A stretch of 64,000 nt of DNA from Ideonella alba. GTDB lineage: Bacteria; Pseudomonadota; Gammaproteobacteria; Burkholderiales; Burkholderiaceae_C. Positions 33,133-49,484 of this stretch are shown here, one piece after another; the first letter of the stretch is position 1; each line of letters begins with the position of its first letter. The translations under genes were made by a program, and so were the position numbers. The DNA is taken from contig NZ_JAGQDF010000011.1 of NCBI RefSeq assembly GCF_018069875.1, forward strand, positions 1 to 64,000, written 5' to 3'. The notes beneath the pieces are model-generated. The model had not been told where the DNA came from. It searched no databases and saw nothing but the letters and a program-made list of their open reading frames with translations.

Positions 33133-33151
33133 GGGTCGTTTTCCTGGTCCG

Positions 33152-33931
33152 TCAGCGGAAAACCGCCGGACGCTTCTCATTGAAAGCCGCCAGTCCCTCG
33201 CGGTGTTCGTCGGACGGGGCGTAGGCGTAATGGGGTTCGCGCTCGGCGCGGTGGCTGGGCTGGTCGCGGTGAGCGAACTGGCGCAGCGCGCGCTTGTTCA
33301 GGCGCATCGCCTGCGGCGACAGGCGGGCGATCTGGCGCGCGCTGGCCAGGGCCTCGGCGGCCACCTCGGCGTCGGGCACCACGCGGGTGAGCAGGCCGCG
33401 GCGCAAGGCCTCGTCGGCGTTCAGCACACGGGCTTCCAGCAGCAGCTCGCGCAGCACGGTCTCGCCCACCACGCGGGCGACGATCTCGATCTCGGCCGGC
33501 GCCATCGGAAAGCCCAGCTTGGCGATCGGCACGCCGAAGCGGCTGCCCTGGCCGGCGATGCGCAGGTCGCAGCAGCAGGCGATCTCCAGCCCACCGCCAA
33601 TGCAGGCGCCATCAATCTGGGCCACCAGGGGCCTGTCCAGTGCCAGCAGCGCCCACAGCGCCGGCGCGACGATCTCCTCGTGGAAATGCGCCAGCGTGTC
33701 GGCCTGGAAGCGGAAGGCGGGGAACTCCTCGATGTCGCCGCCGGCCACGAAGGTCCCGCCCTCGCCCTGCACGATCACCGCGCGGGCATCGCTGGCCTGC
33801 AGCGATTCGGCGTGGGCGCGCAGCTCACGCCACATCGTGGTGTCCAGTGCGTTGAGCTTGCCGGGGTGGGCAATCGTCAGGCGGGCGATGCCGTGGGCAT
33901 CGGCCGCGTCGAGTCGAACATGTCCGGTCAT
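33152..33931 (-). CDS. Enoyl-CoA hydratase/isomerase (crotonase) family protein, possible decarboxylase
   Basis: The 259-residue protein has the crotonase fold, with KLNALDTTMW, the oxyanion region GGTFVAGGDIEEF and IDGACIGGGLEIACCCDLRIAG. The first catalytic Glu of hydratases is in place (GGGLE), but the second position reads FGVPIAKLGFPMAP, with Ile where hydratases have Glu. Methylmalonyl-CoA decarboxylases of the same superfamily also lack that Glu, so a (methyl)malonyl-CoA decarboxylase role is possible, which would suit the malonyl-CoA synthetase 19 bases downstream. This is inference; it could also act on another acyl-CoA. Confidence 0.8.
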   Translation of the reverse strand: MTGHVRLDAADAHGIARLTIAHPGKLNALDTTMWRELRAHAESLQASDARAVIVQGEGGTFVAGGDIEEFPAFRFQADTLAHFHEEIVAPALWALLALDRPLVAQIDGACIGGGLEIACCCDLRIAGQGSRFGVPIAKLGFPMAPAEIEIVARVVGETVLRELLLEARVLNADEALRRGLLTRVVPDAEVAAEALASARQIARLSPQAMRLNKRALRQFAHRDQPSHRAEREPHYAYAPSDEHREGLAAFNEKRPAVFR

Positions 33932-33941
33932 GCCGGCAGTA

Positions 33942-34937
33942 TCAATCGAGTTTGGCCCCCGAGAGCTTGACCACCGAGCCCCAGCGCTTGATCTCTTCGC
34001 TGACAAAGCGGCCGAAGTCATCGCCCCACAGCGTGGGCACGGTGCTGCCCAGGCCGGTCCAGGTGGTCTTGAGCTCGTCGGAGCTCAGCGCCTTCTTCAG
34101 CTCGGCCTGCATCTGCTCGACGATCTCGCGCGGCGTGCCCTTGGGCGCCCACAGGCCGTACCAGGTGGCGACCTGGTAGGTGGGCACCGAGCCTTCGGCG
34201 GCGGTGGGGATGTCCGGGAAGCCCGGCGCGCGCTGCGCCGAGGCCACCGCCAGCGCCTTGATGCGGCCCGACTTGATGTGCTGGGCGGAACTGCCCAGGC
34301 CGTCGAACATCAGATCGACCTGACCGGCCATCAGGTCTTGCAGCGCCGGGCCGGCGCCGCGGTAGGGGATGTGGGTGATGAAGGTCTTGGTCTGCAGCTT
34401 GAACAGCTCGCCCGCCAGGTGGTGCGAGGTGCCATTGCCGGCCGAGCCGTAGTTCAGCTTGCCGGGATTGCGGCGCAGGAAGTCCAGCAGCGCGGGCAGG
34501 TCCTTGGCCGTGACCTTCTGCGGGTTGACGACGATGACCTGCGGCACGCTGGAGATCAGGCCCACCGGCACGAAATCGCGCTCCAGGTCGTACTCCAGCC
34601 TGGGGTACATGGCCGGGGCGATCGCGTGGTGCACCGCGCCCATGAAGAAGGTGTAGCCGTCGGGCGCAGCCTTGGCCGCCAGCGTGGCGCCCAGCGTGCC
34701 GCCGGCGCCGCCCTTGTTGTCGATGATGAACTGCTTGCCCAGCTTGTGGCTCAGGTGGGCCGTCAGCGGCCGCGCGAAGGCGTCGGTGCCGCCGCCGGCG
34801 GGGAAGGGCACGACGATGGTCACCGGCCGCGCCGGCCAGCTGCCCTGGGCCCGCGCGGCGCCCGGCAGCCCGGCCAGCAGGGTCGAGCCGGCGGCGGCCG
34901 CCAGCAGGGCGCGGCGATCAGTGTCGATCAAGGGCAT
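33942..34937 (-). CDS. Bug family tripartite tricarboxylate transporter binding protein
   Basis: The 331-residue protein has a signal peptide with twin-arginine-like DRRALLAAAAGS, then the Bug pattern WPARPVTIVVPFPAGGGTDAFARPLTAHL, DNKGGAGGTLGA, YTFFMGAVHHAIAP and GELFKLQTKTFITHIPYRGAGPALQDLM. Bug proteins bind carboxylates in the periplasm, and many are orphans without TctA/TctB, as here. The following genes (crotonase, malonyl-CoA synthetase) point to a dicarboxylate such as malonate. It is the first gene of the operon, with an AGGAGA site before ATG 34937 and a divergent sigma-54 activator. Confidence 0.92.
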   Translation of the reverse strand: MPLIDTDRRALLAAAAGSTLLAGLPGAARAQGSWPARPVTIVVPFPAGGGTDAFARPLTAHLSHKLGKQFIIDNKGGAGGTLGATLAAKAAPDGYTFFMGAVHHAIAPAMYPRLEYDLERDFVPVGLISSVPQVIVVNPQKVTAKDLPALLDFLRRNPGKLNYGSAGNGTSHHLAGELFKLQTKTFITHIPYRGAGPALQDLMAGQVDLMFDGLGSSAQHIKSGRIKALAVASAQRAPGFPDIPTAAEGSVPTYQVATWYGLWAPKGTPREIVEQMQAELKKALSSDELKTTWTGLGSTVPTLWGDDFGRFVSEEIKRWGSVVKLSGAKLD

Positions 34938-35040
34938 GGAGTCTCCTGTCCTGTGGTTCTGCCCCGGATCGTAACGGCAGGCCCCGCATGGGCTGCCAAG
35001 GCGTTTCCCCGAGCCGCCGTTGACTGAAAACCATACAGCG

Positions 35041-35066
35041 AGTGTCCAAAAGCAATACACTGGCCC
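35041..35066 (-). promoter_or_regulatory. Candidate sigma-54 promoter of the Bug/crotonase/MatB operon
   Basis: Read on the minus strand from 35066 to 35052 the sequence is GGGCCAGTGTATTGC: GG, ten bases, then GC, the invariant spacing of -24/-12 elements. It lies between the operon start (34937) and the divergent sigma-54 activator gene (35068). A small inverted repeat AGTGT...ACACT (35041-35061) overlaps it. The -24 match beyond GGC is imperfect. Confidence 0.45.
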
Positions 35067-35067
35067 G

Positions 35068-36542
<1,475 letters not shown>

Positions 36543-36546
<4 letters not shown>

Positions 36547-36926
36547 GCATGACCGCCGTTCACCTGCTTGCGATCGCCGCGCTGCTGCAGTACTTCGTCT
36601 TCAGCACCATCGTTGGCTGGGCGCGCGGCAAGTACGGCGTGGCGGCACCCGCCGTCAGCGGCCATCCCGTCTTCGAGCGCCACTACCGGGTGCAGATGAA
36701 CACCCTGGAGCTGTTGGTGATGCTGCTGCCGGCGCTGTGGCTGGCCGGGCAGTTCTGGTCGCCCACCGCGGCCGTCGTGGGCGGCCTGGTCTACCTGGTG
36801 GGCCGCGGCGTGTACGCGCTGAGCTATGTGCGCAACCCGGCCAGCCGCACCGCCGGTTTTGCGCTGAGCATCGGCCCCACGCTGACCCTGCTGATCGGCG
36901 CCGTGGTGGGGATGTTGCGCGCCTGA
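36543..36926 (+). CDS. MAPEG family membrane protein
   Basis: The 127-residue protein has four membrane helices and the MAPEG signature around FERHYRVQMNTLELLVMLLPALWLAG (the E-x-x-x-x-x-x-x-N-x-x-E segment of glutathione-binding members) and YALSYVRNPASRTAGFALS. The superfamily covers membrane glutathione transferases and eicosanoid enzymes; bacterial forms are little studied. The ATGA overlap with the sigma-54 regulator gene implies co-translation, though a functional link is not obvious. Confidence 0.85.
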
Positions 36927-36941: not shown

Positions 36942-36959
36942 GGCCGTGCAGGCACGGCC
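36942..36959 (+). other. Hairpin GGCCGTG-CAGG-CACGGCC
   Basis: A perfect 7-bp stem with a four-base loop lies 16 bases after the MAPEG stop. No T-tract follows, so it is a weak terminator candidate at best. It separates the regulator/MAPEG unit from the transporter cluster. Confidence 0.35.
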
Positions 36960-36967
36960 GTTGCACT

Positions 36968-37003: not shown

Positions 37004-38194
37004 ATGACCCTGCGTCGCCTCACCCTCGCCGCTGCCGCGCTGATCGCGCTGGGCAGCACCACCCTGCCTGCGCTGGCCGTCGGCGAGATCCGCATCGCCC
37101 ACATCCACAGCAAGACCGGCCCGCTCGAAGCCTATGGCAAGCAGACGGCGCTGGGCTTCAGGATGGGCCTGGAGTACGCCACCAACGGCACGATGGAGGT
37201 GGCCGGCAAGAAGCTGGTGGTCATCGAGAAGGACGACCAGGGCAAGCCCGATCTGGGCAAGAGCCTGCTGGCCGCCGCCTATGGCGACGACCAGGCCGAC
37301 ATCGCCGTGGGTCCCACCTCGTCCGGCGTGGCGCTGGCGATGCTGCCGGTGGCCGCCGAGTACAAGAAGATCCTGCTGGTCGAGCCCGCGGTGGCCGACT
37401 CGATCACCGGCGACAAGTGGAACAAGTACATCTTCCGCACTGGCCGCAACAGCAGCCAGGACGCGATCAGCAACGCGGTGGCGCTGGACAAGCCCGGCAC
37501 CGTGATCGCCACGCTGGCCCAGGACTACGCCTTTGGCCGTGACGGCGTCAAGGCCTTCAAGGACGCGATCAAGCAGGCCAAGCTGGTCCATGAGGAATAC
37601 CTGCCCACCAACACGACGGACTTCACCGCCGGTGCGCAGCGCCTGATCGACAAGCTCAAGGACCAGCCGGGCCGCAAGGTGATCTTCATCATCTGGGCCG
37701 GCGCGGGCAACCCGTTCAAGATCGCCGACCTGGACCTGAAGCGCCATGGCATCGAGATCGCCACCGGCGGCAACATCCTGCCGGCCATGGCCTCGTACAA
37801 GAACTTCCCCGGCATGGAAGGCGCCACCTACTACTACTTCGGCATCCCGAAGAACCCGGTCAACGAGGCGCTGGTGGCGCAGCACTACAAGCAGTTCAAG
37901 CAGCCGCCCGACTTCTTCACCGCCGGCGGCTTCAGCGCCGCCATGGCCGTGGTCACCGCGCTGAAGAAGACCAATGGCGACACCGCCACGCCCAAGCTGA
38001 TCAGCACCATGGAGGGCATGAGCTTCGACACGCCCAAGGGCACCATGACCTTCCGCAAGGAAGACCACCAGGCGATGCAGAGCATGTACCACTTCAGGAT
38101 CAAGGTGGACCCGGCCTTCGCCTGGGGCGTGCCTGAGCTGGTGCGCGAGATCAAGGCGTCCGAGATGGACGTCCCCATCCGCAACAAGCGCTGA
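37004..38194 (+). CDS. Liv-type ABC transporter substrate-binding protein
   Basis: The 396-residue protein has a signal peptide (LTLAAAALIALGSTTLPALA) and the two-lobe fold of LivK/leucine-binding type periplasmic receptors: IRIAHIHSKTGPLEAYGKQTALGFRMGLEYA, DIAVGPTSSGVALAMLPVA, IFRTGRNSSQDAIS, TLAQDYAFGRDGVKAFKDAI. It is the receptor for the LivHMGF-like importer encoded downstream. Position 1 in a cluster with PHB depolymerase and oligomer hydrolase suggests the ligand is 3-hydroxybutyrate or a short oligomer rather than an amino acid; this is inference from context only. The start lies in the hairpin described at 36968-37003. Confidence 0.92.
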   Translation: MTLRRLTLAAAALIALGSTTLPALAVGEIRIAHIHSKTGPLEAYGKQTALGFRMGLEYATNGTMEVAGKKLVVIEKDDQGKPDLGKSLLAAAYGDDQADIAVGPTSSGVALAMLPVAAEYKKILLVEPAVADSITGDKWNKYIFRTGRNSSQDAISNAVALDKPGTVIATLAQDYAFGRDGVKAFKDAIKQAKLVHEEYLPTNTTDFTAGAQRLIDKLKDQPGRKVIFIIWAGAGNPFKIADLDLKRHGIEIATGGNILPAMASYKNFPGMEGATYYYFGIPKNPVNEALVAQHYKQFKQPPDFFTAGGFSAAMAVVTALKKTNGDTATPKLISTMEGMSFDTPKGTMTFRKEDHQAMQSMYHFRIKVDPAFAWGVPELVREIKASEMDVPIRNKR

Positions 38195-38202
38195 GCCCGC
38201 GC

Positions 38203-39390
38203 GTGACGCGACACCTGGCCGCCTGGCTGCTGGCCGGCGTGGTGCCCTGCGCCGGCGCCGCGCTGCCGCCGCTGCCCGCGGGCATCGTCGACCCGGCGCA
38301 GGGCGCGTCGGTGTCGGGCATCTCCTCGGGCGGCTACATGGCGGTGCAACTGCACTTTGCCCACGCCGAGACCTTCACGCAGGGCGTGGGCGTGGTGGCC
38401 GGTGGCCCTCTGGGCTGCGCCGAAGGGGACGTGGCCAAGGCGCTGGGCCGCTGCATGGCCCATGAGCAGCCGATTCCGGTGGAGGCCCTGGTCCAGCGCG
38501 CCCGCAGCGCGGCGCAGCAGGGCCAGCTGGCCCCGCTGAGCCAGGTGGGGGCGGGCCGGGTCTACCTGTTCAGCGGCACACGCGACGAGACCGTGCGCCC
38601 CGGCGTGATGGACGACCTGCGCAGCTTCTACCGCGCCTTCGTGCCCGCCGAGCGCCTGCGCGAACGGCGCGACGTGCCCGCCGGCCACAGCTTCGTCACC
38701 GAGGATTTCGGGCCGACCTGCGCCGCCGAGTCGGCCAACTTCATGAACGACTGCGATGTCGACCTGGCCGGCGAACTGCTGGGCCACCTGGTGGGCAGCG
38801 GTCAGGCCCGGCCGCCGCGGCCCCGGGTGGAGGGCACGCCCGCGGCGCAGGCCTTCGACCAGCGCGCCTTCGTCACCGGCCACGGCCTGGCCGCCGAAGG
38901 CCGCGTCTTTGTCCCGGCCGACTGCAGCCGCGAGCGGCCCTGCGGCCTGCACGTGGCGCTGCACGGCTGCCGGCAATCGGTGGGCGCGATCGGCAGCGAC
39001 TTCGTCGACCACGCCGGCTTCAACCGCTGGGCCGCCAGCAACCGGCTGGTGGTGCTGTACCCGCAGACCGAGTCCTCGTCGCCGGGCAACCCGCGTGGCT
39101 GCTGGGACTGGTGGGGCCACGACGACGCCCGCTACGCCACCCGCCAGGGCCCGCAGGTGCGCGCGGTGATGGCCATGGTGCACCGGCTGCAGGGTGCGCC
39201 GGCCGATGCGCCGGTGGCCGCCTGCATCACCGCCAGCAACTGGACCCACTACTGGGCCGACCGCGCCACCACCGACGGCTTCGGCGGCGTGCGCGCCGCG
39301 GGCAGCGGCGAGTCGCTGGGCTGGTGGTGGCAGACCACCACGCTGCGCGAATGGCCGGCCGGCCAGTTCCGCCGCGGGAGCTGCGACTGA
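38203..39390 (+). CDS. Extracellular PHB depolymerase (short-chain-length PHA depolymerase, type 2 catalytic domain)
   Basis: The 395-residue protein starts at GTG 38203, eight bases after the binding-protein gene, with a signal peptide (LAAWLLAGVVPCAGA). The catalytic Ser is in the lipase box SGISSGGYMA (Ser41), near the N-terminus as in type 2 catalytic domains; Asp is likely in SGTRDETVRPG and His in VPAGHSF. Later blocks HVALHGCRQSVGAIG, FNRWAASNRLVVLYPQT and CWDWWGHDD are family signatures. It hydrolyses extracellular denatured poly(3-hydroxybutyrate) to oligomers. There is no separate substrate-binding domain at the C-terminus, so it is a compact form. Export is likely Sec plus type II. 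Confidence 0.88.
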   Translation: MTRHLAAWLLAGVVPCAGAALPPLPAGIVDPAQGASVSGISSGGYMAVQLHFAHAETFTQGVGVVAGGPLGCAEGDVAKALGRCMAHEQPIPVEALVQRARSAAQQGQLAPLSQVGAGRVYLFSGTRDETVRPGVMDDLRSFYRAFVPAERLRERRDVPAGHSFVTEDFGPTCAAESANFMNDCDVDLAGELLGHLVGSGQARPPRPRVEGTPAAQAFDQRAFVTGHGLAAEGRVFVPADCSRERPCGLHVALHGCRQSVGAIGSDFVDHAGFNRWAASNRLVVLYPQTESSSPGNPRGCWDWWGHDDARYATRQGPQVRAVMAMVHRLQGAPADAPVAACITASNWTHYWADRATTDGFGGVRAAGSGESLGWWWQTTTLREWPAGQFRRGSCD

Positions 39391-40148
39391 TGCTGGAAAC
39401 CCGCGGCCTGACCATCCGCTTTGGCGGCCACGTGGCGGTGGACCAGGTGAGCTGTGCCTTCGCGCCGGGCACGCTGACCGCGATCGTCGGCCCCAACGGC
39501 GCCGGCAAGACCACCTACTTCAACCTGATCAGCGGCCAGCTGCCGGCCAGCGCCGGCCAGGTGCTGCTCGACGACATGGACATCAGCGGCCTCTCGGCGC
39601 CGCAGCGCACCCGCCGTGGCCTGGGCCGTGCCTTCCAGCTGACCCAGTTGTTCCCGGGCTTGAGCGTGCAGGAGAACGTGCGCCTGGCGGTGCAGGCGCG
39701 CCATGGTGGCGGCCTGAACCTGTGGCAGGTCTGGCGCGACCGCCGTGACTGGCTGGAGGAGACCCGCGAGCTGCTGGCCGCGGTGCGACTGCTCGATCGC
39801 CGCGACGCGCTGGCCGCCAGCCTGTCGCACGGCGACCAGCGCAAGCTCGAGGTGGCGCTGCTGATGGCCCTGGACCCGCGCGTCTACATGTTCGACGAAC
39901 CCACGGCCGGCATGAGCCTGGACGAGGCGCCGGTGGTGCTCGACCTGATCCGCGCACTGAAGGCGCGCCAGGACCGCGTGATCCTGCTGGTCGAGCACAA
40001 GATGGACGTGGTGCGCGAACTGGCCGACCGCATCGTCGTGCTGCACCAGGGCGCGCTGGTGGCCGACGGCGAGCCCGCCGCCGTGATCGCCTCGGATGTC
40101 GTGCAGCAGGCCTACCTGGGCACGGCACCCACCGGAGACAGCGCATGA
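39390..40148 (+). CDS. Liv-type ABC transporter ATP-binding protein (LivG-like)
   Basis: The 252-residue ATPase has Walker A GPNGAGKTTYFNLI, the family marker RTRRGLGRAFQLTQLFPGLSVQENV (GlyArg-rich LivG loop), signature LSHGDQRKLE and Walker B VYMFDEPTAGMSLDEA. The His in LSHGDQ and the C-terminal LVEHKMDVV are usual for LivG. The ATG overlaps the stop of the depolymerase gene by one base (TGATG), so translation is coupled. It pairs with the ATPase encoded next to drive the importer. Confidence 0.93.
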   Translation: MLETRGLTIRFGGHVAVDQVSCAFAPGTLTAIVGPNGAGKTTYFNLISGQLPASAGQVLLDDMDISGLSAPQRTRRGLGRAFQLTQLFPGLSVQENVRLAVQARHGGGLNLWQVWRDRRDWLEETRELLAAVRLLDRRDALAASLSHGDQRKLEVALLMALDPRVYMFDEPTAGMSLDEAPVVLDLIRALKARQDRVILLVEHKMDVVRELADRIVVLHQGALVADGEPAAVIASDVVQQAYLGTAPTGDSA

Positions 40149-40891
40149 CGGCCTTGCTGCAACTGGACGGGGTGCACACCCACATCGGCGCGTACCACAT
40201 CCTGCATGGCGTGGACCTGGCGGTGCCCGAAGGCGAGGTGACGATGCTGCTGGGCCGCAACGGCGCTGGCAAGACCACCACGCTGCGCACCATCATGGGC
40301 CTGTGGCCGGCCAGCGCCGGCCGCGTGGCCTTCCGCGGCCAGACCATTGGCGGCCCGGGCTCGGCCTTCGCCACGCCCGACATCGCCCGCGCCGGCATCG
40401 CCTACGTGCCCGAAAGCATGGGCATCTTCAGCGACCTGACGGTGCGCGAGAACATGCTGCTGGCCGCCCGCGCCGCGCGCCGCGAGGCCGAGCTCGACCG
40501 CGCCCGTCTCGACTGGATCTTCGGCTTCTTCCCGGCGCTGCACAAGTTCTGGCTCTACCCGGCCGGCAAGCTCAGCGGCGGCCAGAAGCAGATGCTGGCG
40601 GTGGCCCGCGCCATCATCGAGCCGCGTGCGCTGCTGCTGATCGATGAGCCCAGCAAGGGCCTGGCGCCGGCCATCGTGCAGAACCTGGTGCAGTGCCTGG
40701 CCGAGCTGAAGCGCGAGCGCACCACCATCCTGCTGGTCGAGCAGAACGTGATGATGGCCCGCGCCCTGGGCGACCAGGTGGCGGTGATGGACGACGGCCG
40801 CGTGGTCCACACCGGCCGCATGGCCGACCTCGCCGCCGATGCCGGGCTGCAGCAGCGCCTGCTGGGCCTGTCGCTGGGAGCGCACGCATGA
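40145..40891 (+). CDS. Liv-type ABC transporter ATP-binding protein (LivF-like)
   Basis: The 248-residue ATPase has Walker A GRNGAGKTTTLRTIMG, Q-loop-proximal IAYVPESMGIFSDLTVREN, signature LSGGQKQMLAVARAI and Walker B ALLLIDEPSKGLAPAIV, with LVEQNVMMA, all typical of LivF. It overlaps the previous gene (ATGA) and the next (ATGA). The heterodimer of the two ATPases would power the transport complex. Confidence 0.93.
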   Translation: MTALLQLDGVHTHIGAYHILHGVDLAVPEGEVTMLLGRNGAGKTTTLRTIMGLWPASAGRVAFRGQTIGGPGSAFATPDIARAGIAYVPESMGIFSDLTVRENMLLAARAARREAELDRARLDWIFGFFPALHKFWLYPAGKLSGGQKQMLAVARAIIEPRALLLIDEPSKGLAPAIVQNLVQCLAELKRERTTILLVEQNVMMARALGDQVAVMDDGRVVHTGRMADLAADAGLQQRLLGLSLGAHA

Positions 40892-41901
40892 GCCAGGCAC
40901 CGTCGGCCGGCGCGGCCATTCCGAAGGCGCAGTTCGACACCCGCCCGCTGTGGCTGCTGGCCGCGGTGATGGCCGCCGGCGCGGCGCTGGTGGGCAGCGG
41001 CAGCACCTGGCTCACGCTCACCGTGGCCGGGCTGGCGATGGGGCTGATCGTCTTCATCATCGCCTCGGGCCTGACCCTGGTCTTCGGGCTGATGGACGTG
41101 CTGAACTTCGGCCACGGCGTGTTCATCGCGGTGGGTGCGTTCGTGGCCACCAGCGTGATGGGCGGCATGGCCGACTGGACGGGCTCGGCCTCGCTGGGCG
41201 CCAACCTGGTGGCGGTGGGCGCGGCCATGGCGGTGGCGATGGCGGTGGCCGGTGCGATCGGTCTGGTCTTCGAGCGGCTGATCGTGCGGCCGGTCTACGG
41301 CCAGCACCTCAAGCAGATCCTGATCACGATGGGCGGCATGATCATCGGTGAGGAGCTGATCAAGGTGATCTGGGGCCCGGCGCAGATCCCGCTGCCGCTG
41401 CCTGAAGCCTTGCGCGGTGCCCTCCTGCTGGGTGATGCGGCGGTCGAGCGCTACCGGCTGCTGGCGGTGGTGATCGGGCTGGGCGTGTTCGCGCTGCTGG
41501 CCTGGGTGCTGGGCCGCACCAAACTGGGCCTGCTGATCCGCGCCGGCGTGCAGGACCGCGAGATGGTCGAGGCGCTGGGCTACCGCGTGCGGCACCTGTT
41601 CCTGGGCGTGTTTGTCGCCGGCTCGGCGCTGGCCGGCCTGGGCGGCGTGCTGTGGGGCCTGTACCAGCAGAGTGTGGTGCCGCAGATCGGCGCGCAGGTC
41701 AACACGCTGATCTTCATCGTCATCATCATCGGCGGCCTGGGCAGCACGCTGGGCAGCTTCGTCGGCGCGCTGCTGGTGGGCCTGGTGGCCAATTACCTGG
41801 GCTTCGTCGCGCCCAAGGCGGCGCTGTTCTCCAACATCGCGCTGATGATGGCCGTGCTGCTGTGGCGGCCGCAGGGCCTGTACCCGGTGGGAGGGCGCTG
41901 A
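40888..41901 (+). CDS. Liv-type ABC transporter permease (LivH-like)
   Basis: The 337-residue protein has about eight membrane helices and the LivH hallmark IIASGLTLVFGLMDVLNFGHGVFIAVGAF near residue 55-85, then RPVYGQHLKQILITMGGMIIGEELIK and IIIGGLGSTLGSFVGALLVG (EAA-like loop region). The N-terminal 20 residues are a longer polar extension (SQAPSAGAAIPKAQFDTRP) than in E. coli LivH. ATGA overlap with the ATPase gene before it. It forms half of the transmembrane channel. Confidence 0.92.
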   Translation: MSQAPSAGAAIPKAQFDTRPLWLLAAVMAAGAALVGSGSTWLTLTVAGLAMGLIVFIIASGLTLVFGLMDVLNFGHGVFIAVGAFVATSVMGGMADWTGSASLGANLVAVGAAMAVAMAVAGAIGLVFERLIVRPVYGQHLKQILITMGGMIIGEELIKVIWGPAQIPLPLPEALRGALLLGDAAVERYRLLAVVIGLGVFALLAWVLGRTKLGLLIRAGVQDREMVEALGYRVRHLFLGVFVAGSALAGLGGVLWGLYQQSVVPQIGAQVNTLIFIVIIIGGLGSTLGSFVGALLVGLVANYLGFVAPKAALFSNIALMMAVLLWRPQGLYPVGGR

Positions 41902-41905
41902 GACC

Positions 41906-43015
41906 ATGCTGATCGACCGCCTGCTGAGTGCCGATCCGCCGCGCAGCCGCCTGCTGGCCGTGCTGCTGCTGGCCACCGTGCTGGGCCTGGCCTGCGCGCC
42001 CTTCCTGTTCCCGGGTGCCAAGGCGCTGGGCGTGGCCGCGAAGATGCTGGTCTTCATCCTTCTGGTGGCCAGCTACGACCTGCTGCTGGGCTACACCGGC
42101 ATCGTCAGCTTTGCCCACACCATGTTCTTCGGCATTGGCGCCTATGGCGTGGCCGTCGCCGCCACGCGCCTGGGCGGCGAGGCCGGCGTGGGCTTCGGCG
42201 CGCTGCTCATGGGCCTGGCCGGCGCGCTGGGGCTGTCGCTGCTGCTGGGTCTGCTGATCGGCCTGTTCAGCCTGCGTGTCAAGGCCATCTTCTTCGCCAT
42301 GATCACGCTGGCGGTGGCAGCGGCCTTCCAGGGCCTGGCCTCGCAGCTGAGTGAGCTCACCGGCGGCGAGGACGGCCTGAGCTTCTCGGTGCCCGAGGTG
42401 CTGACCCCGGCCTTCGAACCCTTCGAGGCCCCGGTGCTGGGCCGCATGATCGATGGCCAGGTGATCACCTACTACCTGCTCTTCGGCGTCGTGCTGCTGG
42501 TCTTCCTGGCGCTGCTGCGGGTGGTCAATTCGCCCTTCGGCCGCGTGCTGCAGGCGATCCGCGAGAACGACTTCCGCGCCGAGGCCATCGGCTACCGCAG
42601 CGCGGTCTACCGCACCGGCTCGACCCTGGTGTCGGCGCTGGTGGCCACGCTGGCTGGTGCGCTGCTGGCGCTGTGGCTGCGCTACACCGGGCCGGACACC
42701 ACGCTGAGCTTCGAGATCATGCTCGACGTGCTGCTGATCGTGGTGATCGGCGGCATGGGCACGATGTACGGCGCGGTGCTGGGCTCGGTGCTCTTCGTCT
42801 TCGCGCAGAACTACCTGCAGGAAGGCCTGCGCTGGATGGGCGGCGAGGGCGGCTGGCTGGCCGAGGTGCCGGTGCTGGGCGCGCTGGTGTCGCCGGACCG
42901 CTGGCTGCTCTGGCTGGGCCTGGGCTTCGTGCTGTGCGTGTACCACTTCCCCACCGGCCTGGTGGGGCGTTTGCGGGCCCGGTCGAACACCGGGCCTTCC
43001 CCAGCCGACCACTGA
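41906..43015 (+). CDS. Liv-type ABC transporter permease (LivM-like)
   Basis: The 369-residue protein has nine or so membrane helices with LVASYDLLLGYTGIVSFAHTMFFGIGAYG (LivM signature), FFAMITLAVAAAFQGL and RVLQAIRENDFRAEAIGYRSAVYR, then VIGGMGTMYGAVLGSVLFV. It is separated by four bases from the preceding permease gene. A GGQ-type ATPase is not fused. It is the second half of the channel. The gene ends 52 bases before the start of the oligomer hydrolase gene. Confidence 0.92.
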   Translation: MLIDRLLSADPPRSRLLAVLLLATVLGLACAPFLFPGAKALGVAAKMLVFILLVASYDLLLGYTGIVSFAHTMFFGIGAYGVAVAATRLGGEAGVGFGALLMGLAGALGLSLLLGLLIGLFSLRVKAIFFAMITLAVAAAFQGLASQLSELTGGEDGLSFSVPEVLTPAFEPFEAPVLGRMIDGQVITYYLLFGVVLLVFLALLRVVNSPFGRVLQAIRENDFRAEAIGYRSAVYRTGSTLVSALVATLAGALLALWLRYTGPDTTLSFEIMLDVLLIVVIGGMGTMYGAVLGSVLFVFAQNYLQEGLRWMGGEGGWLAEVPVLGALVSPDRWLLWLGLGFVLCVYHFPTGLVGRLRARSNTGPSPADH

Positions 43016-43067
43016 CCCGGTGGTTCGGATTCCGATGACCAGCCGTCGACACAACGAGGAGACTGCC

Positions 43068-45218
43068 GTGCATTTGCATCGATCGAGACAACACCTGGTC
43101 CTGGCCGTGCTGGCCCTGCTGGGCGCCAACGCCGCGCAGGCGGCCACCCCGCCCAATCGCCTGCCTGGCGCGGTGCGCGGGCCGGTGATCGAAACCGTCT
43201 ACGACGGCGTCAGCAACGACCTGCTGACCGCCGGTCTGGGCAAGACCGGTCTGATGGGCGGCACGCCCGCCTATGTCAACCCGGCCGCACCCACCGCCGC
43301 CGAGTTGCGCCGCAACGCCATCTACGTCAACTACCGTGCGCTGGTCGACTACACCGCCGGCGGCGGCATGGGCGTGTTCTACGGTCCCAACATCGACATC
43401 CACGGCCAGGACACGCTGGGCGAAGGCAAGGTGCCCGGCCGCGAATACATCGCCTGGTCCGACGACGGCAGCGGCCAGCGCAACGTGACGCTGATGGTGC
43501 AGCTGCCCGACAGCTTCAACCCGGCCGCGCCATGCATCGTCAGCGCCACCTCGTCAGGCTCACGCGGCGTGTATGGCGCGATCGCCACCGCGGGTGAGTG
43601 GGGCCTCAAGCGCGGTTGCGCGGTGGCCTACACCGACAAGGGCACCGGCAACGGCCTGCACGACCTGGTCAGCGGCGTCGTGATGGCCCGCGATGGCACG
43701 CTGCTCAACGCCGCCACCGCCGGCACCGAGGCCCTCTTCCAGGCCCAGCTGACCGAGGAGCAGCGCGCCGCGTTCAATGCCGCCACGCCCAACCGTGTGG
43801 CCTACAAGCATGCGCATTCGCAGCGCAACCCCGAGAAGGACTGGGGTCGCCACACGCTGGACGCGATCCGCCTGGCCTTCTGGGCGATCAATGAGCGCTA
43901 CGGCGCGCCGGACGCCCGGCAGCCGGGCCGGCGCCTGGCCACGATCACGCCAGAGCAGACCCTGGTCATCGCCTCCAGCGTCTCCAACGGCGGCGGCGCG
44001 GCGCTGGCGGCTGCCGAGCAGGACAAGGACGGCCTGATCGACGGCGTGGCCGTCAGCGAACCCAATGCCACGCCACGCAACGCGCGCAAGCTGCAGATCC
44101 GCCAGGGCGCGCTGCAGGCCAGCGTGCTGGGCCGGCCGCTGGTGGACTACTTCACCTTCGCCAACGTCTACCAGCCCTGCGCGCTGCTGTCCTCGCAGGC
44201 CGGGTTGTCGCTGAGCGCAGCGTTCTGGCCGGCCGCCTTCACCACCATCGCCCAGCTGCGCTGCGGGGCGCTGGCGGCCAAGGGCCTGGTCAGCGGCGCC
44301 ACGCTGGCCGAGCAGGCCGACGATGCGCTGGCCCGGATGCTGGCCTACGGCTGGCAGCCGGAGAGCAACTTCCTGCAGCAGTCGCACTTCCGCTTCGCCA
44401 CCAACTCGATCGCCTTCACCTACGTGAACGCGGCCGGCCGCTTCAGCGTGCTGGACAGCGTTTGCGGCTACAGCCTGGCCAACACCGACGCCAACGGCAA
44501 CCCGACGGCCCAGCTGCCGGTGGTGCAGGCGGGCATCTTCGCCAGCGGCAACGGCGTGCCGCCGACCAGCGGCGTCAACATCGTCTACAACCCGTCGGTG
44601 GGCGGGGCCAAGCTGGACTTCGTGGCGATCTCGCCGTCGACCAGCCAGTTCGACTTCGCGCTCGATGGCGCGCTGTGCCTGCGCTCGCTGGCCACCGGCG
44701 TCGACGCTGTCACCGGTGCGCCCTTGGCGGGTGAGCTGCTGGCCCAGTCGCAGCGGGTGCAGGCCGGCGTCAGCGAGGTGCTGCTCAAGGCGCGCCTGCA
44801 GGGCAAGCCCACGCTGATCGTCGCGGGCCGCAATGATGCGCTGCTGCCGGGCAACCACACCGCGCGCGCCTACTACGGCGCCAACCAGCTGAAGGAAGGC
44901 GCCGGCAGCACCCGGCTGATCGAGGTGACCAACGCGCAGCACTTCGACGGCTTCATCGCCTTCGGCGCGCTGATGGGCTACGACACCCGCTTCATTCCGC
45001 TGCACGTCTACTTCAACCGCGCGATGGACGCGATGTGGGACCACCTGAAGCACGGCACGGCGCTGCCGCCCAGCCAGGTGGTGCGCACCGTGCCGCGCGG
45101 CGGCGTCAGCGGTGCCGCGCCGGCGCTGACGGCCGCCAACGTGCCGCCGATCGCCGCTGCCCCGCTGGCCGGCGATCTGATCACGATGGACGGTCCGACC
45201 CTGACGATCCCGGAGTGA
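43068..45218 (+). CDS. D-(-)-3-hydroxybutyrate oligomer hydrolase
   Basis: The product is 716 residues from GTG 43068, which has a GAGGAGA site five bases upstream (43056-43062); ATG 43035 and GTG 43020 upstream lack such a site. The signal peptide is HLVLAVLALLGANAAQA. The body matches 3HB-oligomer hydrolases (PF10605): VIETVYDGVSNDLLTAGLGKTGL, FYGPNIDIHGQDTLGEGKVPG, CIVSATSSGSRGVYGA and the serine elbow SSVSNGGGAAL (near residue 306), with GRNDALLPGNH and NAQHFDGF giving the likely Asp and His. It cleaves 3HB oligomers from depolymerase action to monomers. The signal peptide implies a periplasmic or secreted form. Confidence 0.9.
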   Translation: MHLHRSRQHLVLAVLALLGANAAQAATPPNRLPGAVRGPVIETVYDGVSNDLLTAGLGKTGLMGGTPAYVNPAAPTAAELRRNAIYVNYRALVDYTAGGGMGVFYGPNIDIHGQDTLGEGKVPGREYIAWSDDGSGQRNVTLMVQLPDSFNPAAPCIVSATSSGSRGVYGAIATAGEWGLKRGCAVAYTDKGTGNGLHDLVSGVVMARDGTLLNAATAGTEALFQAQLTEEQRAAFNAATPNRVAYKHAHSQRNPEKDWGRHTLDAIRLAFWAINERYGAPDARQPGRRLATITPEQTLVIASSVSNGGGAALAAAEQDKDGLIDGVAVSEPNATPRNARKLQIRQGALQASVLGRPLVDYFTFANVYQPCALLSSQAGLSLSAAFWPAAFTTIAQLRCGALAAKGLVSGATLAEQADDALARMLAYGWQPESNFLQQSHFRFATNSIAFTYVNAAGRFSVLDSVCGYSLANTDANGNPTAQLPVVQAGIFASGNGVPPTSGVNIVYNPSVGGAKLDFVAISPSTSQFDFALDGALCLRSLATGVDAVTGAPLAGELLAQSQRVQAGVSEVLLKARLQGKPTLIVAGRNDALLPGNHTARAYYGANQLKEGAGSTRLIEVTNAQHFDGFIAFGALMGYDTRFIPLHVYFNRAMDAMWDHLKHGTALPPSQVVRTVPRGGVSGAAPALTAANVPPIAAAPLAGDLITMDGPTLTIPE

Positions 45219-45234
45219 GGCCACAGGAGCCGCG

Positions 45235-46074
45235 ATGTCGCACACCTCGAACTACCTGCGCTGCCTGGACCGCGAGATCCACTACACCGAGTGGGGCGCG
45301 GCGCAGGCCGACGTGGTGATCGCCTGGCATGGCCTGGCGCGCACCGGGCGCGACATGGACGACATCGCGGCCCACCTGTCCACCCGCTGGCGGGTGATCT
45401 GCCCCGACACGATCGGCCGCGGCCTGAGCCAGTGGAGCCCGGACCCCGGGGCCGAGTACTGCCTGGACTTCTATGTGCGCCTGGCCGAATCGCTGTTGGA
45501 CCAGCTGGGCGTGCGGCAGTGCCTGTGGCTGGGCACCTCGATGGGGGGCGCGATCGGCCTGCGCGGCGCGGCGGGTCGCCTGCGTGGCCGGATCGGCCGG
45601 CTGGTGCTCAACGACATGGGGCCGGAGATCGCGGCGTCCGCGGTCGAGCGCATCCGCACCTACGCCGGCAGCCCGGCCAGCTTTGCCACCGTGGGCGAGC
45701 TGGAGCAGTACTTCCGCACCATCTACGCCCCCTATGGCTGGCTCAGCGATGCCCAGTGGCGCCGCCTGACCGAGACCAGCGTGCGCCGCCTGCCCGACGG
45801 CCGTGTGACGCCGCACTACGACCCGCAGATGGTGCGCCAGTTCATCGACCACCCCGCCGACTACGACCAGTGGCCGCAGTGGGACAGCCTGGACATTCCG
45901 GTGCTGTGCCTGCGCGGCGAGCACTCGGATCTGCTGGAAGCGCCGGTGGCCGAGCAGATGCGCCAGCGCGGCCCGCGCGCCACGGTGGTCACGGTGCCGG
46001 GCTGCGGGCATGCGCCGGCGCTCAATGTGCCGGCCCAGTTCGCGTGGGTCGATGACTTCCTGACGACACCCTGA
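45235..46074 (+). CDS. Alpha/beta-fold hydrolase, possible intracellular 3HB-oligomer hydrolase
   Basis: The 279-residue protein has no signal peptide and is an alpha/beta hydrolase: oxyanion region IAWHGLARTGRDMD, nucleophile elbow LWLGTSMGGAIG (Ser102), Asp in VLCLRGEHSDLL and His in VPGCGHAPALN. It is 16 bases downstream of the oligomer hydrolase gene and is the last gene of the cluster. By context it could hydrolyse imported oligomers in the cytosol; the sequence alone only supports a general esterase/hydrolase. It is convergent with the HAF-repeat gene, nine bases away. Confidence 0.85.
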   Translation: MSHTSNYLRCLDREIHYTEWGAAQADVVIAWHGLARTGRDMDDIAAHLSTRWRVICPDTIGRGLSQWSPDPGAEYCLDFYVRLAESLLDQLGVRQCLWLGTSMGGAIGLRGAAGRLRGRIGRLVLNDMGPEIAASAVERIRTYAGSPASFATVGELEQYFRTIYAPYGWLSDAQWRRLTETSVRRLPDGRVTPHYDPQMVRQFIDHPADYDQWPQWDSLDIPVLCLRGEHSDLLEAPVAEQMRQRGPRATVVTVPGCGHAPALNVPAQFAWVDDFLTTP

Positions 46075-46083
46075 GGCCGCCGC

Positions 46084-47130
46084 TCAGCGGGCCACTGCGC
46101 CCACCGAGTCAAGGCGTCGCAACAGCACGCCGTGAAACTGTCCCTGGGCATTGCGCGCCCATGCGATGACATGGCCGGCGTCGTTGATGCCTCGGGCCGC
46201 CATCAGCCGCCACTGGGCCTGCTGCGCCGCCGGCAGCAGCTTGGCCAGCCACCACATCTGGCCGCCGCTGTACAGGAAAGGTCCGGAACGGCCGGCCAGC
46301 GCGCGGTCACCCACCACCTCGCCTGCGGCATTGATGCTGTAGGCATAACTGCGGGCGCCATGGCGGCTCTCCAGGTCGGTGGTGACACCGTCGCGGTGGA
46401 GGTAGGCATGGGTCTGGAAATAGTGCGGACCCACCTGTGAGCTGCCGACCACCCAGCCCTGGCGGTTGATCGCCAGGGCCAGCGTGGACAGGCTGCCCGG
46501 CAGGCCGAAGGTCTCCTTCAGCACGCCGTCCTGCCACAGCGCGCCGTACTGCCCTTGCACCCCATCGATGGTCTGCCTGACGATGCCGGCCACCTGGCCT
46601 GCATCGTTGATCGCCCAGGCGACGCTGGGCAGGTCGGGCTGCGGCACCGGCAGGTCCTGCCACTGGCCGTCGTCCATCAGGAAGGCGCGGTCAGGCTGCA
46701 TCAGCTGCGAGCGTCGCCCCACCACCTGGCCCTGGCTGTTGATGCCGTGGGCCGAGGCGCTGCCTTCGGGCGGCGCATGCAGCGTGGTGCTGCCGGCCTG
46801 ATGGATGAAGATCCGGCTGCTCGCGCGCCCCAGCATCAGCTCGCCGGTGACATGGCCGGCATCGCTGATCGCGGATGCATGGCCGCTGCGGTACGGAGGG
46901 TCGCCGTGCTGGATCAGGCGCTGAGCCCGGCCGTTGACAAATCGCACGGGGTAGCCGGCACCGTCGGTCTGTTCAGCCATGCCGACGATGTCATCCGTGC
47001 TGTTGATGGCCCGCGCATCGCTCTGAACACCTTGGCGCAGGGTGCCCAGGTCCACCAGCTCATAGCGGGGCGCCTTCGCCCATGCGCCCGCCGAGGCCAC
47101 CAGGAGCAGCAGGGCTGCGAACAATCTCAT
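46084..47130 (-). CDS. Exported HAF-repeat protein
   Basis: The 348-residue protein has a signal peptide (LFAALLLLVASAGAWA) and at least six copies of a repeat of the form AINDAGQVAG (ARAINSTDDIVG, SAISDAGHVTG, GINSQGQVVG, AINDAGQVAG, AINRQGWVVG, SINAAGEVVG, GINDAGHVIA), about 45-50 residues apart. These are HAF repeats, which form a beta-propeller-like chain in extracellular or cell-surface proteins. The number suggests a seven-bladed form. The function is unknown; it is likely periplasmic or secreted. It is oriented toward the PHB cluster but not part of it. Confidence 0.85.
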   Translation of the reverse strand: MRLFAALLLLVASAGAWAKAPRYELVDLGTLRQGVQSDARAINSTDDIVGMAEQTDGAGYPVRFVNGRAQRLIQHGDPPYRSGHASAISDAGHVTGELMLGRASSRIFIHQAGSTTLHAPPEGSASAHGINSQGQVVGRRSQLMQPDRAFLMDDGQWQDLPVPQPDLPSVAWAINDAGQVAGIVRQTIDGVQGQYGALWQDGVLKETFGLPGSLSTLALAINRQGWVVGSSQVGPHYFQTHAYLHRDGVTTDLESRHGARSYAYSINAAGEVVGDRALAGRSGPFLYSGGQMWWLAKLLPAAQQAQWRLMAARGINDAGHVIAWARNAQGQFHGVLLRRLDSVGAVAR

Positions 47131-47400
47131 GTTTCGTCTCCTTGGTGGCCTCAGTGCGCACGCCGCTAATGTGGTGCGTCGGTGGCCTGCTGTGCATCCC
47201 TATGCTGTCCAGGGGCCGTGCGCAGGCACGCCCGGGTGCCCCCCTTGCCTTCGGGGGAGGGGGCATGGCCACGTTGAACAGCCCCTGGCCCGGCAGCGAC
47301 AATCGGCGCAGCAGGAGCCCGTCATGCCCTTCGTCGATCCATCCCACCCTTGCCGGCGAGCCCCGGCCCGCGTCGCCGCCGTCCTGCGCATGGTCGAGGT
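47131..47400. other. Intergenic stretch, promoter region for HAF gene and kinase
   Basis: The 270 bases separate two divergent genes. A GC-rich inverted repeat (TGCCCCC at 47237-47243 and GGGGGCA at 47259-47265) lies in the middle. I see no clear sigma-70 boxes and no convincing small gene. Confidence 0.45.
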
Positions 47401-48861
47401 GTGCGTCTGAATGCGTCCGACAGCCGGTGGGCCGCCGCCGCGGTGGTGCTGGCGGCGCTGGGGGGCGGTCTGCTGTGGCGCCTGGATGACGCGCAACGCC
47501 GCGAGGCCTTCGACACCCAGGCCCGCATCGCCCACCGCCTGCTGAGCCAGCATGCGCTGCAGATGGAGGCGGTGCTGGCCACGCTGACCCTGGTGGCCAC
47601 CGGCCCCGAGCAGGCCGACGCCGCGCGCCGCCTGCCGGCGCTGCTGCCCGCGGTGCGCAGCGTGCAGCAGCGCACCGATCCGCAACCCTGGCCCGATGCC
47701 CGGCTGCAGGCCGCCGAGCAGGCCTCGCGCGAGACGCGCCGGGCGGTGCTGGTGCGCCTGGAGACTGCCGCGCCGCGCGCGCTGCTGCTGCGCGCCGGCC
47801 AGCCCAGCAGTTATGCGCTGGAAGTCGACCTGTCGCAACCGCTGCGCGAGGCCGACTGGCCCGTGGCGCCGGGCTCGGCGGTGTCGGTGGCCCTGGTCCC
47901 GGCCGACCGTCCGCTGGTGTGGCTGCAGCAGGGCCGATCGCCGGCCACGGTGCTGGGCCGCTACGAGGCGCGCAAGCACCTGGCCGCCGACAGCCTGCCG
48001 GTGGATGTGGTGCTGCAGCAGCCCTGGAGCTGGGCCGAGCTGCCCTGGCTGGCCTGGGCCCTGTGGACGCTGCTGTGTGCCGCGGCGATGCTGCTGGTGC
48101 GCGCCGGCTGGCGCCAGCGCCAGGCCCGCCGCCGCGCCGAGGAGTGGCTGCGCCTGGGTCAGGTGGCCCGGCTGAACACGCTGGGCGAACTGGCGGCGGG
48201 CATGGCCCATGAGCTGAACCAGCCGCTGACCGCGGTGCTGGCCAACACCCAGGCGGCCGGCCGCCTGCTGGACGAGGACCCGCCCGAGCTGAGCACCGCG
48301 CGCCAGGCGATGACCCAGGCCGCCGCCCAGGCGCGCCGCGCCAGCGAGGTGCTGTCCCGCTTGCGCCAGGCCCTGGCGCGGCCCGACGAGCCACCGCCCA
48401 GCAGCAGCTTGCGCCTGGACGCGGCGGCGCGCGCGGCGCTGGACCTGCTGGCCCCCGAGGCCCAGGCGCTGGGGGTGCGCCCGCAGTTACAGGTGGCTCC
48501 CAGCGCGGCCGCGGTGCGGGCCGATCCAGTCGCGGTGGAGCAGATCCTGCACAACCTGTTGCGCAATGCGCTGCAGGCCCTGGCCGCGGTGCCGACCGAC
48601 GAACGCCGGCTGACGGTGCAGGTCGAGGCCGATGCCCGCAGCGGCCACCTCAGCGTGATCGACAGCGGCGAGGGCCTGGCGCCCGAGGTCGCGGCCCGCC
48701 TGTTCCAGCCCTTTGTCAGCACCCGCGAGGGCGGTCTGGGCCTGGGCCTGAGCCTCAGTGAATCGCTGGCGCAGGCCCAGGGCGGCGCGTTGACGCTGCT
48801 GCCGCTGGCCGAACGCGGGGCCGGCTTCCGGCTCAGCCTGCCCCGGGCCGAGGCCGCCTGA
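47401..48861 (+). CDS. Sensor histidine kinase, FixL/DctB-like
   Basis: The product is 486 residues from GTG 47401. It has one helix near residues 8-25 (WAAAAVVLAALGGGLLW), a periplasmic sensor of about 190 residues, a second helix (LAWALWTLLCAAAMLLVRAGW), then HisKA with the phosphoacceptor in GMAHELNQPL (His270) and a HATPase with NLLRNALQAL, DSGEGL, FVSTREGGLGLGLS. The HELNQPL form groups it with FixL/TodS/DctB kinases. The gene overlaps the response regulator start by one base (TGATG), so the pair is coupled. The signal is unknown. Confidence 0.92.
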   Translation: MRLNASDSRWAAAAVVLAALGGGLLWRLDDAQRREAFDTQARIAHRLLSQHALQMEAVLATLTLVATGPEQADAARRLPALLPAVRSVQQRTDPQPWPDARLQAAEQASRETRRAVLVRLETAAPRALLLRAGQPSSYALEVDLSQPLREADWPVAPGSAVSVALVPADRPLVWLQQGRSPATVLGRYEARKHLAADSLPVDVVLQQPWSWAELPWLAWALWTLLCAAAMLLVRAGWRQRQARRRAEEWLRLGQVARLNTLGELAAGMAHELNQPLTAVLANTQAAGRLLDEDPPELSTARQAMTQAAAQARRASEVLSRLRQALARPDEPPPSSSLRLDAAARAALDLLAPEAQALGVRPQLQVAPSAAAVRADPVAVEQILHNLLRNALQALAAVPTDERRLTVQVEADARSGHLSVIDSGEGLAPEVAARLFQPFVSTREGGLGLGLSLSESLAQAQGGALTLLPLAERGAGFRLSLPRAEAA

Positions 48862-49484
48862 TGCACACGCCGCTGATCCACCTGGTCGACGACGACGCCG
48901 CGGTGCGCGATGGCCTGGCGCTGCTGATCGGCACCGTGGGCCTGCGCGTGCAGACCTGGGACGACCCGCAGGCCTTCATCACGGGCTTTGACCGCCAGGC
49001 CATCGGCGCCATCGTGCTGGACGTGCGCATGCCCGGGCTGGGCGGCATCGCGGTGCTGGAGCGCCTGCAGGCCGAAGGCGTGGACCAGCCGGTGGTGATG
49101 CTCACCGGCCACGGCACGGTGGCGCTGTGCCGGCGCGCCTTCAAGAGCGGCGCGGCCGAGTTCCTGGAGAAGCCGGTCGACGACGAGCTGCTGCTCGACA
49201 CCCTGCAGCAGGCGGTGCGCCAGCATGTACGCTCGCGCGAGCGCCACGCCGCCGATCGCGAGGCCCGCGCCCGCCACGCCCAGCTGTCGCCGCGCGAGCA
49301 GGAGGTGCTGGGCCTGATCATCGAAGGCCTGACCAACAAGGAGATCGGCCGTGCGCTGGGCCTGTCGCCGCGCACCGTCGAGACCCACCGCGCCCACCTC
49401 TTCGCCAAGCTGGAGGCCGAGTCGCTGGCCCAGCTGATCCGGCGCTATGCCCGGCTGGTCGAGGAGGGCGACAGCGCTCCGTAG
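48861..49484 (+). CDS. FixJ/LuxR-type response regulator
   Basis: The 207-residue protein has an N-terminal receiver domain (LVDDDAAVRDGLALLIG, phosphoacceptor in IVLDVRMPG at Asp54, VMLTGHGTV, EFLEKPVD with the conserved Lys) and a C-terminal LuxR-type helix-turn-helix (LSPREQEVLGLIIEGLTNKEIGRALGLSPRTVETHRAHLFAKL). It is the partner of the upstream kinase. A 20-base perfect palindrome covers its stop codon and lies in front of the DUF336 gene, a likely target. Confidence 0.94.
   Translation: MHTPLIHLVDDDAAVRDGLALLIGTVGLRVQTWDDPQAFITGFDRQAIGAIVLDVRMPGLGGIAVLERLQAEGVDQPVVMLTGHGTVALCRRAFKSGAAEFLEKPVDDELLLDTLQQAVRQHVRSRERHAADREARARHAQLSPREQEVLGLIIEGLTNKEIGRALGLSPRTVETHRAHLFAKLEAESLAQLIRRYARLVEEGDSAP

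Follow-up and report, generated by a model that had tools for sequence, protein, structure and literature searches.

To our knowledge, the entry of the breakdown products of poly-3-hydroxybutyrate (PHB) into Gram-negative cells is poorly described. The sequence-only reading of the DNA studied here knew of no described Liv-type importer for 3-hydroxybutyrate (3HB), and likewise none was found in the open-licence literature, judged on titles and abstract openings; PMC7142370, PMC12967654 and PMC2842291 offered nothing decisive. For Pseudomonas putida, an excerpt of PMC6296734 lists a D-beta-hydroxybutyrate permease (BhbP/PP3074), while in an excerpt of PMC2864759 Cupriavidus PhaY is the enzyme that degrades the products of intracellular PHB depolymerases. 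Here we analyze a 64 kb stretch of Ideonella alba (the window, numbered from its first letter), in which a complete Liv-type ATP-binding cassette (ABC) importer is interleaved with genes of PHB degradation. From sequence evidence we favor, with moderate confidence, a PHB-use operon whose importer takes up 3HB and/or short 3HB esters.

The operon consists of eight genes in a single plus-strand run (37004-46074), with the coordinates, strand and families that the sequence-only reading had proposed. A LivK-like receptor, the substrate-binding protein, opens the run with an export-type N-terminus (37004..38194; PF13458, 183.5 bits), followed by a type 2 PHB depolymerase (38203..39390; NCBIfam NF050059) made up of a catalytic domain at residues 33-329 and a C-terminal tail that longer orthologues share. 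The LivG-like and LivF-like ATPases (39390..40148 and 40145..40891; both PF00005) and the LivH-like and LivM-like permeases (40888..41901 and 41906..43015; both PF02653) complete an importer of the HAAT/Liv type, with one receptor, two permeases and two ATPases in one run. The last two genes encode a 3HB-oligomer hydrolase with an export-type N-terminus (43020..45218; PF10605, 1055.6 bits against a cut-off of 27), whose start is uncertain (43020 or a later ATG), and an alpha/beta hydrolase that is a predicted cytosolic esterase (45235..46074; PF12697/PF00561). The overlaps of stop and start at 39390, 40145 and 40888, likewise claimed before, are read straight from the sequence.

We compared neighborhoods across relatives. 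Receptor homologues were sought in an order sample (300 genomes, 24 with a match at E 1e-80), a phylum sample (398 genomes, 23 with a match, many shared with the order sample) and named genome contigs (the best 80 of 582 relatives). We mapped 119 receptor loci and counted the 111 with a complete receptor-LivGFHM core, dropping 8 incomplete ones; this set is skewed to close relatives and is not dereplicated. In the 119 mapped loci, every depolymerase occupies the slot that separates the receptor from LivG, and every oligomer hydrolase lies 3' of LivM. The depolymerase occupies its slot in 33 of the 111 loci, each time on the operon strand (33/33); the oligomer hydrolase follows LivM in 21/111, with 20 starting at most 290 bp from LivM and one at 1841 bp; and 12/111 carry both. 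Loci with both PHB genes belong to Acidovorax, Giesbergeria, Ideonella, Piscinibacter, Rhizobacter and one Rhodoferax, those with the depolymerase and no oligomer hydrolase to Variovorax, Hydrogenophaga, Comamonas, Pseudacidovorax and Rubrivivax, and those with the oligomer hydrolase and no depolymerase to Curvibacter, Roseateles and another Rhodoferax. Recurrence of the same order in many genera exceeds chance, and the conservation of order beyond close relatives on which the sequence-only reading had staked its proposal holds within Burkholderiales (e.g., the Acidovorax, Variovorax and Curvibacter loci).

The esterase shows its own pattern: an alpha/beta hydrolase lies downstream in 83/111 loci and upstream in 7 more, two of the upstream copies (L075, L077) being 62-63% identical to the window's and the five others 33-36%, two of these five on the opposite strand. 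Among loci with enough flank, the 61 of the named sample hold the depolymerase in 20, the oligomer hydrolase in 15 and a downstream esterase in all 61, and the 19 of the order sample hold them in 3, 2 and 8, with 6 further esterases upstream. On a FastTree tree of the five transporter proteins, where gains and losses are indistinguishable, the minimum number of state changes is 14 for the depolymerase, 12 for the oligomer hydrolase and 10 for the esterase; a paired test relating the two PHB traits to each other on this tree gave p 0.625 from 10 pairs.

Co-occurrence and a control on depolymerase loci point the same way. Within the order sample, the type 2 depolymerase is found in 34/300 genomes (33 above cut-off) and coincides with the receptor in 8 (expected 2.7, p 0.0024 by a Fisher test, which ignores phylogeny), the two genes being adjacent in 5 of these 8. 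We inspected 22 of the 29 depolymerase loci in which the gene is not beside the receptor, of which 21 have no complete Liv system nearby and one (G112) has a different and distant one, the second Liv system described below. This control set comprises 20 stretches plus G112 and G219 (L218 and L219 are short; G126, G249, G254, G265, G268, G269 and G298 were left out), and one lone LivF-like ATPase, with no complete Liv system, occurs among the 20 stretches. The oligomer hydrolase has a match in 28/300 order genomes, two of them marginal (G143, 34.5 bits; G200, 18.8 bits), and is adjacent to the receptor in 3 of the 5 genomes that hold both, one of the other two lying on a 5-kb contig. A close esterase homologue (at least 346 bits, a cut that we placed where the scores leave a gap) is present in 16/300 genomes, 13 of which have the receptor (p 6e-14); around the esterase of the three that do not, no other operon gene was found. 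Finally, two loci carry a second Liv system upstream of the oligomer hydrolase (L092:3217-10224 and L094:7973-15774), with receptors 68% identical to each other and 26% to the window's. They lend weak support, because Liv systems are numerous in each Burkholderiales genome and the pair may reflect one lineage or one transfer. Separately, three loci (L154, L158, L159) have a further complete Liv system 3' of the esterase, with a receptor 26-27% identical to the window's.

The transporter subunits fall short of the curated models for amino acid and urea importers. LivK, LivG, LivF, LivH and LivM score 57/477, 185/362, 169/441, 61/379 and 64/366 bits against their NCBIfam LIV cut-offs, and the subunits fail those of UrtABCDE as well (52/492.75, 149/250.3, 104/296.2, 204/304.1 and 207/285.8 bits). 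We aligned 23 receptors with E. coli LivJ and LivK and considered Ser79, Thr102, Tyr150 and Glu226 of LivJ, which we take to be ligand-contact positions. Ser79 is conserved in 23/23 receptors, while in all 23 the Thr102 position is Val, the Tyr150 position is Phe and the Glu226 position is non-acidic, so that Ser79 alone is retained of the trio Ser79, Thr102 and Glu226. Because three of these positions are altered, an alpha-amino-acid ligand is disfavored, though a different acidic residue could compensate; a carboxylate such as 3HB would be in line with the changes. Within the genome that encodes it, the receptor shares 26% identity with its best other match. Its closest PDB relatives are 3n0x (RPA4397) and 3nnd of Rhodopseudomonas palustris (64-69% identity), for neither of which was a ligand found in the literature searched; the main-text excerpt of PMC3223731 (Giuliani 2011) mentions neither RPA4397 nor hydroxybutyrate. 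An AlphaFold2 model of the receptor (mean predicted local distance difference test score, pLDDT, 86.2) was compared with solved folds. Beyond these two and 3i45, which has no ligand in its title, and with 4eyg, whose title is truncated, left aside, the closest entries titled with a ligand are the 4-hydroxybenzoate complexes 4ey3, 4evq and 4evs, then urea receptors, then leucine receptors.

Receptor genes vary in number among relatives. In five loci (L120, L131, L139, L140, L164), the oligomer hydrolase and the esterase are separated by a further LivK-type receptor gene (cluster c16), confirmed as PF13458 for L140; cluster members in L092 and L116 sit elsewhere. Such an arrangement suggests that a single transporter may serve two ligands. 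In L111, L116 and L139, a tandem extra receptor copy, 76-77% identical to the window's, lies upstream of the main one.

The depolymerase and the oligomer hydrolase have sequence features that predict extracellular PHB use. The window depolymerase matches no Pfam family at E 0.001 and passes NF050059 as an extracellular type 2 short-chain-length polyhydroxyalkanoate (scl-PHA) depolymerase (337.9 bits, cut-off 280), as do five other slot depolymerases (L065, L074, L155, G264, G220), the remaining ones being assigned by tblastn with the window protein only. It aligns at 162 bits with the solved PHB depolymerase 2d80/2d81, presumably from P. funiculosum, and the serine that differs as alanine between the two entries aligns with Ser41, the active serine. 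In an alignment of the window protein with 15 others, slot orthologues combine an FN3-like linker with a C-terminal tail that is conserved and that we take to be of the substrate-binding domain type; the window and L103 proteins keep the tail and have no such linker. Export signal, active serine and tail together describe, as far as sequence can tell, an extracellular type 2 enzyme.

By hydropathy, three window proteins (receptor, depolymerase, oligomer hydrolase) each start with a hydrophobic export-type segment, and the window esterase and 85/85 of its homologues have none, by a rule that is insensitive, flagging 82/107 receptors, 17/33 depolymerases and 14/19 oligomer hydrolases. A loose lipobox pattern matches 28/37 oligomer hydrolases and not the window copy; a part of these matches may be false, and a part of the misses seem genuine. 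PhaY, which we take to be a member of PF10605, is known for acting on the products of intracellular depolymerases, and the family name is therefore insufficient to place the window enzyme; it is from the export signal that we argue that the hydrolase at 43020 would act on 3HB oligomers outside the cell.

The metabolic context is in keeping with such a route. Both a 3HB dehydrogenase (355 bits, cut-off 307) and a class I PHA synthase are encoded in the same genome, which has no match to a GntP-type permease, the family to which BhbP/PP3074 presumably belongs. Since 8 of 22 receptor genomes (of 24) do have a GntP match at E 0.001, over cut-off in 4, GntP and the importer are not mutually exclusive. 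Downstream of one receptor-depolymerase-Liv locus (L076) lies a short-chain dehydrogenase/reductase resembling 3HB dehydrogenase (257 bits, cut-off 307).

Upstream sequences suggest how the operon may be controlled, an aspect absent from the sequence-only reading. A sigma-54-dependent activator is encoded on the plus strand at 35074..36546 (AAA+ domain PF00158, 222 bits; Fis-type helix-turn-helix PF02954, 46.6 bits); its open reading frame opens at 35020, leaving the true start uncertain, and its PAS match is weak (PF08448, 21.2 bits, under the cut-off of 23.1). About 40 bp 5' of the receptor start, on the same strand, lies a sigma-54 (-24/-12) promoter-like site, CAGGCACGGCCGTTGCA (36949..36965), the sole one-mismatch site in the 64 kb; overall the pattern is not enriched in the window (60 matches with at most 3 mismatches, 82 expected). 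A site with two or fewer mismatches lies 5' of the receptor in 75 of the 100 loci whose upstream sequence is long enough, compared with 55 of 2000 random stretches from the same loci. The activator gene lies upstream on the same strand in 80/111 loci, and in the 109 loci scored for both, gene and site occur together in 68 and are both absent in 22, with 12 having only the gene and 7 only the site. An adjacent activator and a -24/-12 site predict that the operon is under sigma-54 control.

Other genes in the vicinity vary among relatives. Between activator and receptor, the window has a gene for a small MAPEG protein (36543-36926, plus strand), matched among the mapped relatives' loci in L103 only, while in L114, L125, L127, L138 and L141 this interval holds a chemotaxis-receptor-like protein, judged by eye. 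Divergent genes upstream (31594-35168, minus strand) encode an AMP-binding ligase, an enoyl-CoA hydratase/isomerase family protein and a TctC receptor. We considered these AMP-ligase, crotonase-fold and TctC genes as operon members and rejected them, because in most relatives they are missing next to the activator; several relatives do have TctC and ligase-cluster genes 5' of it. At 46084-49484, 3' of the operon, a DUF3466-matching protein (minus strand) is followed by a histidine kinase and a LuxR-type response regulator (plus strand). The first 6000 positions of the window have a G+C content of 0.57-0.63, compared with 0.66-0.76 in the remainder. TonB-dependent-receptor-like genes (cluster c13) lie near the operon in ten loci (L074, L076, L078, L083, L084, L085, L114, L125, L154, L158), with PF00593 confirmed for L084 and the other nine assigned by cluster membership; such neighbors could possibly provide an outer-membrane route.

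Our favored PHB-use reading assigns a step to each of these parts: (I) the exported depolymerase would free 3HB oligomers and monomer, (II) the exported oligomer hydrolase would shorten the oligomers, (III) the receptor would bind (R)-3-hydroxybutyrate and/or short linear 3HB esters, the dimer most likely, (IV) LivHMGF would bring the bound products into the cell, (V) the cytosolic alpha/beta hydrolase would cut any imported ester, and (VI) the 3HB dehydrogenase encoded elsewhere would channel the product to metabolism, with the sigma-54 activator sensing product. The form of the cargo is less clear-cut, as export of the oligomer hydrolase suggests import of monomer, while the greater persistence of the cytosolic esterase suggests import of an ester. 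As a tentative proposal, 3HB dimers or short oligomers might pass through the importer intact and then be cleaved in the cytosol by the conserved alpha/beta hydrolase.

The claim of the sequence-only reading that the importer serves the PHB pathway gains from the fixed-slot linkage, the non-amino-acid-like receptor, the type 2 depolymerase, the 3HB dehydrogenase and the lack of a GntP match in the same genome. Its further suggestion of a "dedicated" importer goes beyond the evidence, since the transporter family extends beyond PHB use. Several findings weigh against our reading or against dedication. Neither PHB gene is present in 69/111 loci, the depolymerase being absent from 78 and the oligomer hydrolase from 90, and the 13 new phylum-sample loci with enough flank yield one depolymerase, one oligomer hydrolase and two esterases. 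Receptor and oligomer hydrolase co-occur only weakly (5 genomes, expected 2.2, p 0.06, by a test equally blind to phylogeny), and at a cut of 1e-60 the esterase homologue is found in 36 genomes, of which 14 have the receptor. For LivG, LivF, LivH and LivM, the urea models give higher scores than the Liv models do, yet below every cut-off. Lastly, acyl-CoA-ligase and MaoC-like genes lie near L207, L212 and L214 (the L207 ligase judged by eye), with a crotonase-fold gene at L207 and L214, and other carboxylates therefore fit these loci equally well.

Such neighbors and the many loci without PHB genes are what would be expected of a broader importer of small carboxylates (hydroxy acids or short fatty acids), into which PHB genes were recruited repeatedly and for which 3HB is one ligand among several. 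One family of loci (L201, L202, L204, L205) fits this picture too: the activator, the receptor and LivGFHM are kept there, while the stretches read contain no gene homologous to any of the window's three hydrolases. The recurrence of the PHB genes in fixed slots argues the other way, as does the esterase, the most persistent enzyme partner (61/61 named loci with enough flank), because a simple acid needs no esterase. We regard this broader importer as a strong rival, and as less probable than PHB use.

That same persistence could instead make the esterase the defining partner of an importer that takes up esters from other polyesters or from plants, PHB being only one source. The alpha/beta hydrolases downstream in 83/111 loci and upstream in 7 (five of them just 33-36% identical), the patchy PHB genes and the TonB-dependent-receptor-like genes beside 10 loci (Pfam check on one) would suit it; the polymer-degrading genes recognized in the slots are of the PHB families, in slots that are annotated in part, and we consider this explanation unlikely. 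A branched-chain amino acid (or urea/amide) importer of the ordinary kind, placed beside these genes by coincidence, has in its favor the family resemblance (PF13458, PF02653) and the abundance of Liv systems in Burkholderiales genomes, and is made very improbable by scores far under the LIV and urea cut-offs (receptor 57/477 and 52/492.75; LivG 185/362 and its urea counterpart 204/304), by the lack of LivJ Thr102 and Glu226, and by the fixed-slot recurrence together with the depolymerase-locus control.

If the PHB-use reading is correct, a whole polymer-to-cytosol route for PHB would become testable via one operon in many Burkholderiales genera. It would also provide a ligand for a receptor family labeled "branched-chain amino acid", including the solved structure 3n0x.

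In sum, the window system resembles several known systems in part. With E. coli LIV-I/LS (LivJ/LivK-HMGF) it shares the five kinds of subunit and their families, whereas it falls below the curated cut-offs, lacks Thr102 and Glu226 and is adjoined by PHB genes and an esterase. Of the folds whose titles name a ligand, the aromatic-carboxylate HAAT receptors 4ey3, 4evq and 4evs are the closest, and that ligand is a carboxylate without an amino group, but they are just 21-27% identical to the window receptor and presumably belong to operons of another kind; RPA4397 (3n0x; also 3nnd), at 64-69%, is of the same receptor family. The 2d80/2d81 enzyme shares its catalytic domain and the aligned active serine with the window depolymerase, which differs from its own orthologues in having the C-terminal tail without the FN3-like linker. 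BhbP is not of the ABC type. The cargo proposed for the window importer is nonetheless that of P. putida BhbP/PP3074, as listed in the excerpt of PMC6296734. Cupriavidus PhaY and the window hydrolase have the enzyme name in common, the window copy bearing an export-type N-terminus. By analogy, and as a tentative comparison, import of 3HB dimers or oligomers might be the polyester counterpart of polymer-use systems that import oligosaccharides, with modular slots for the depolymerase and the oligomer hydrolase.

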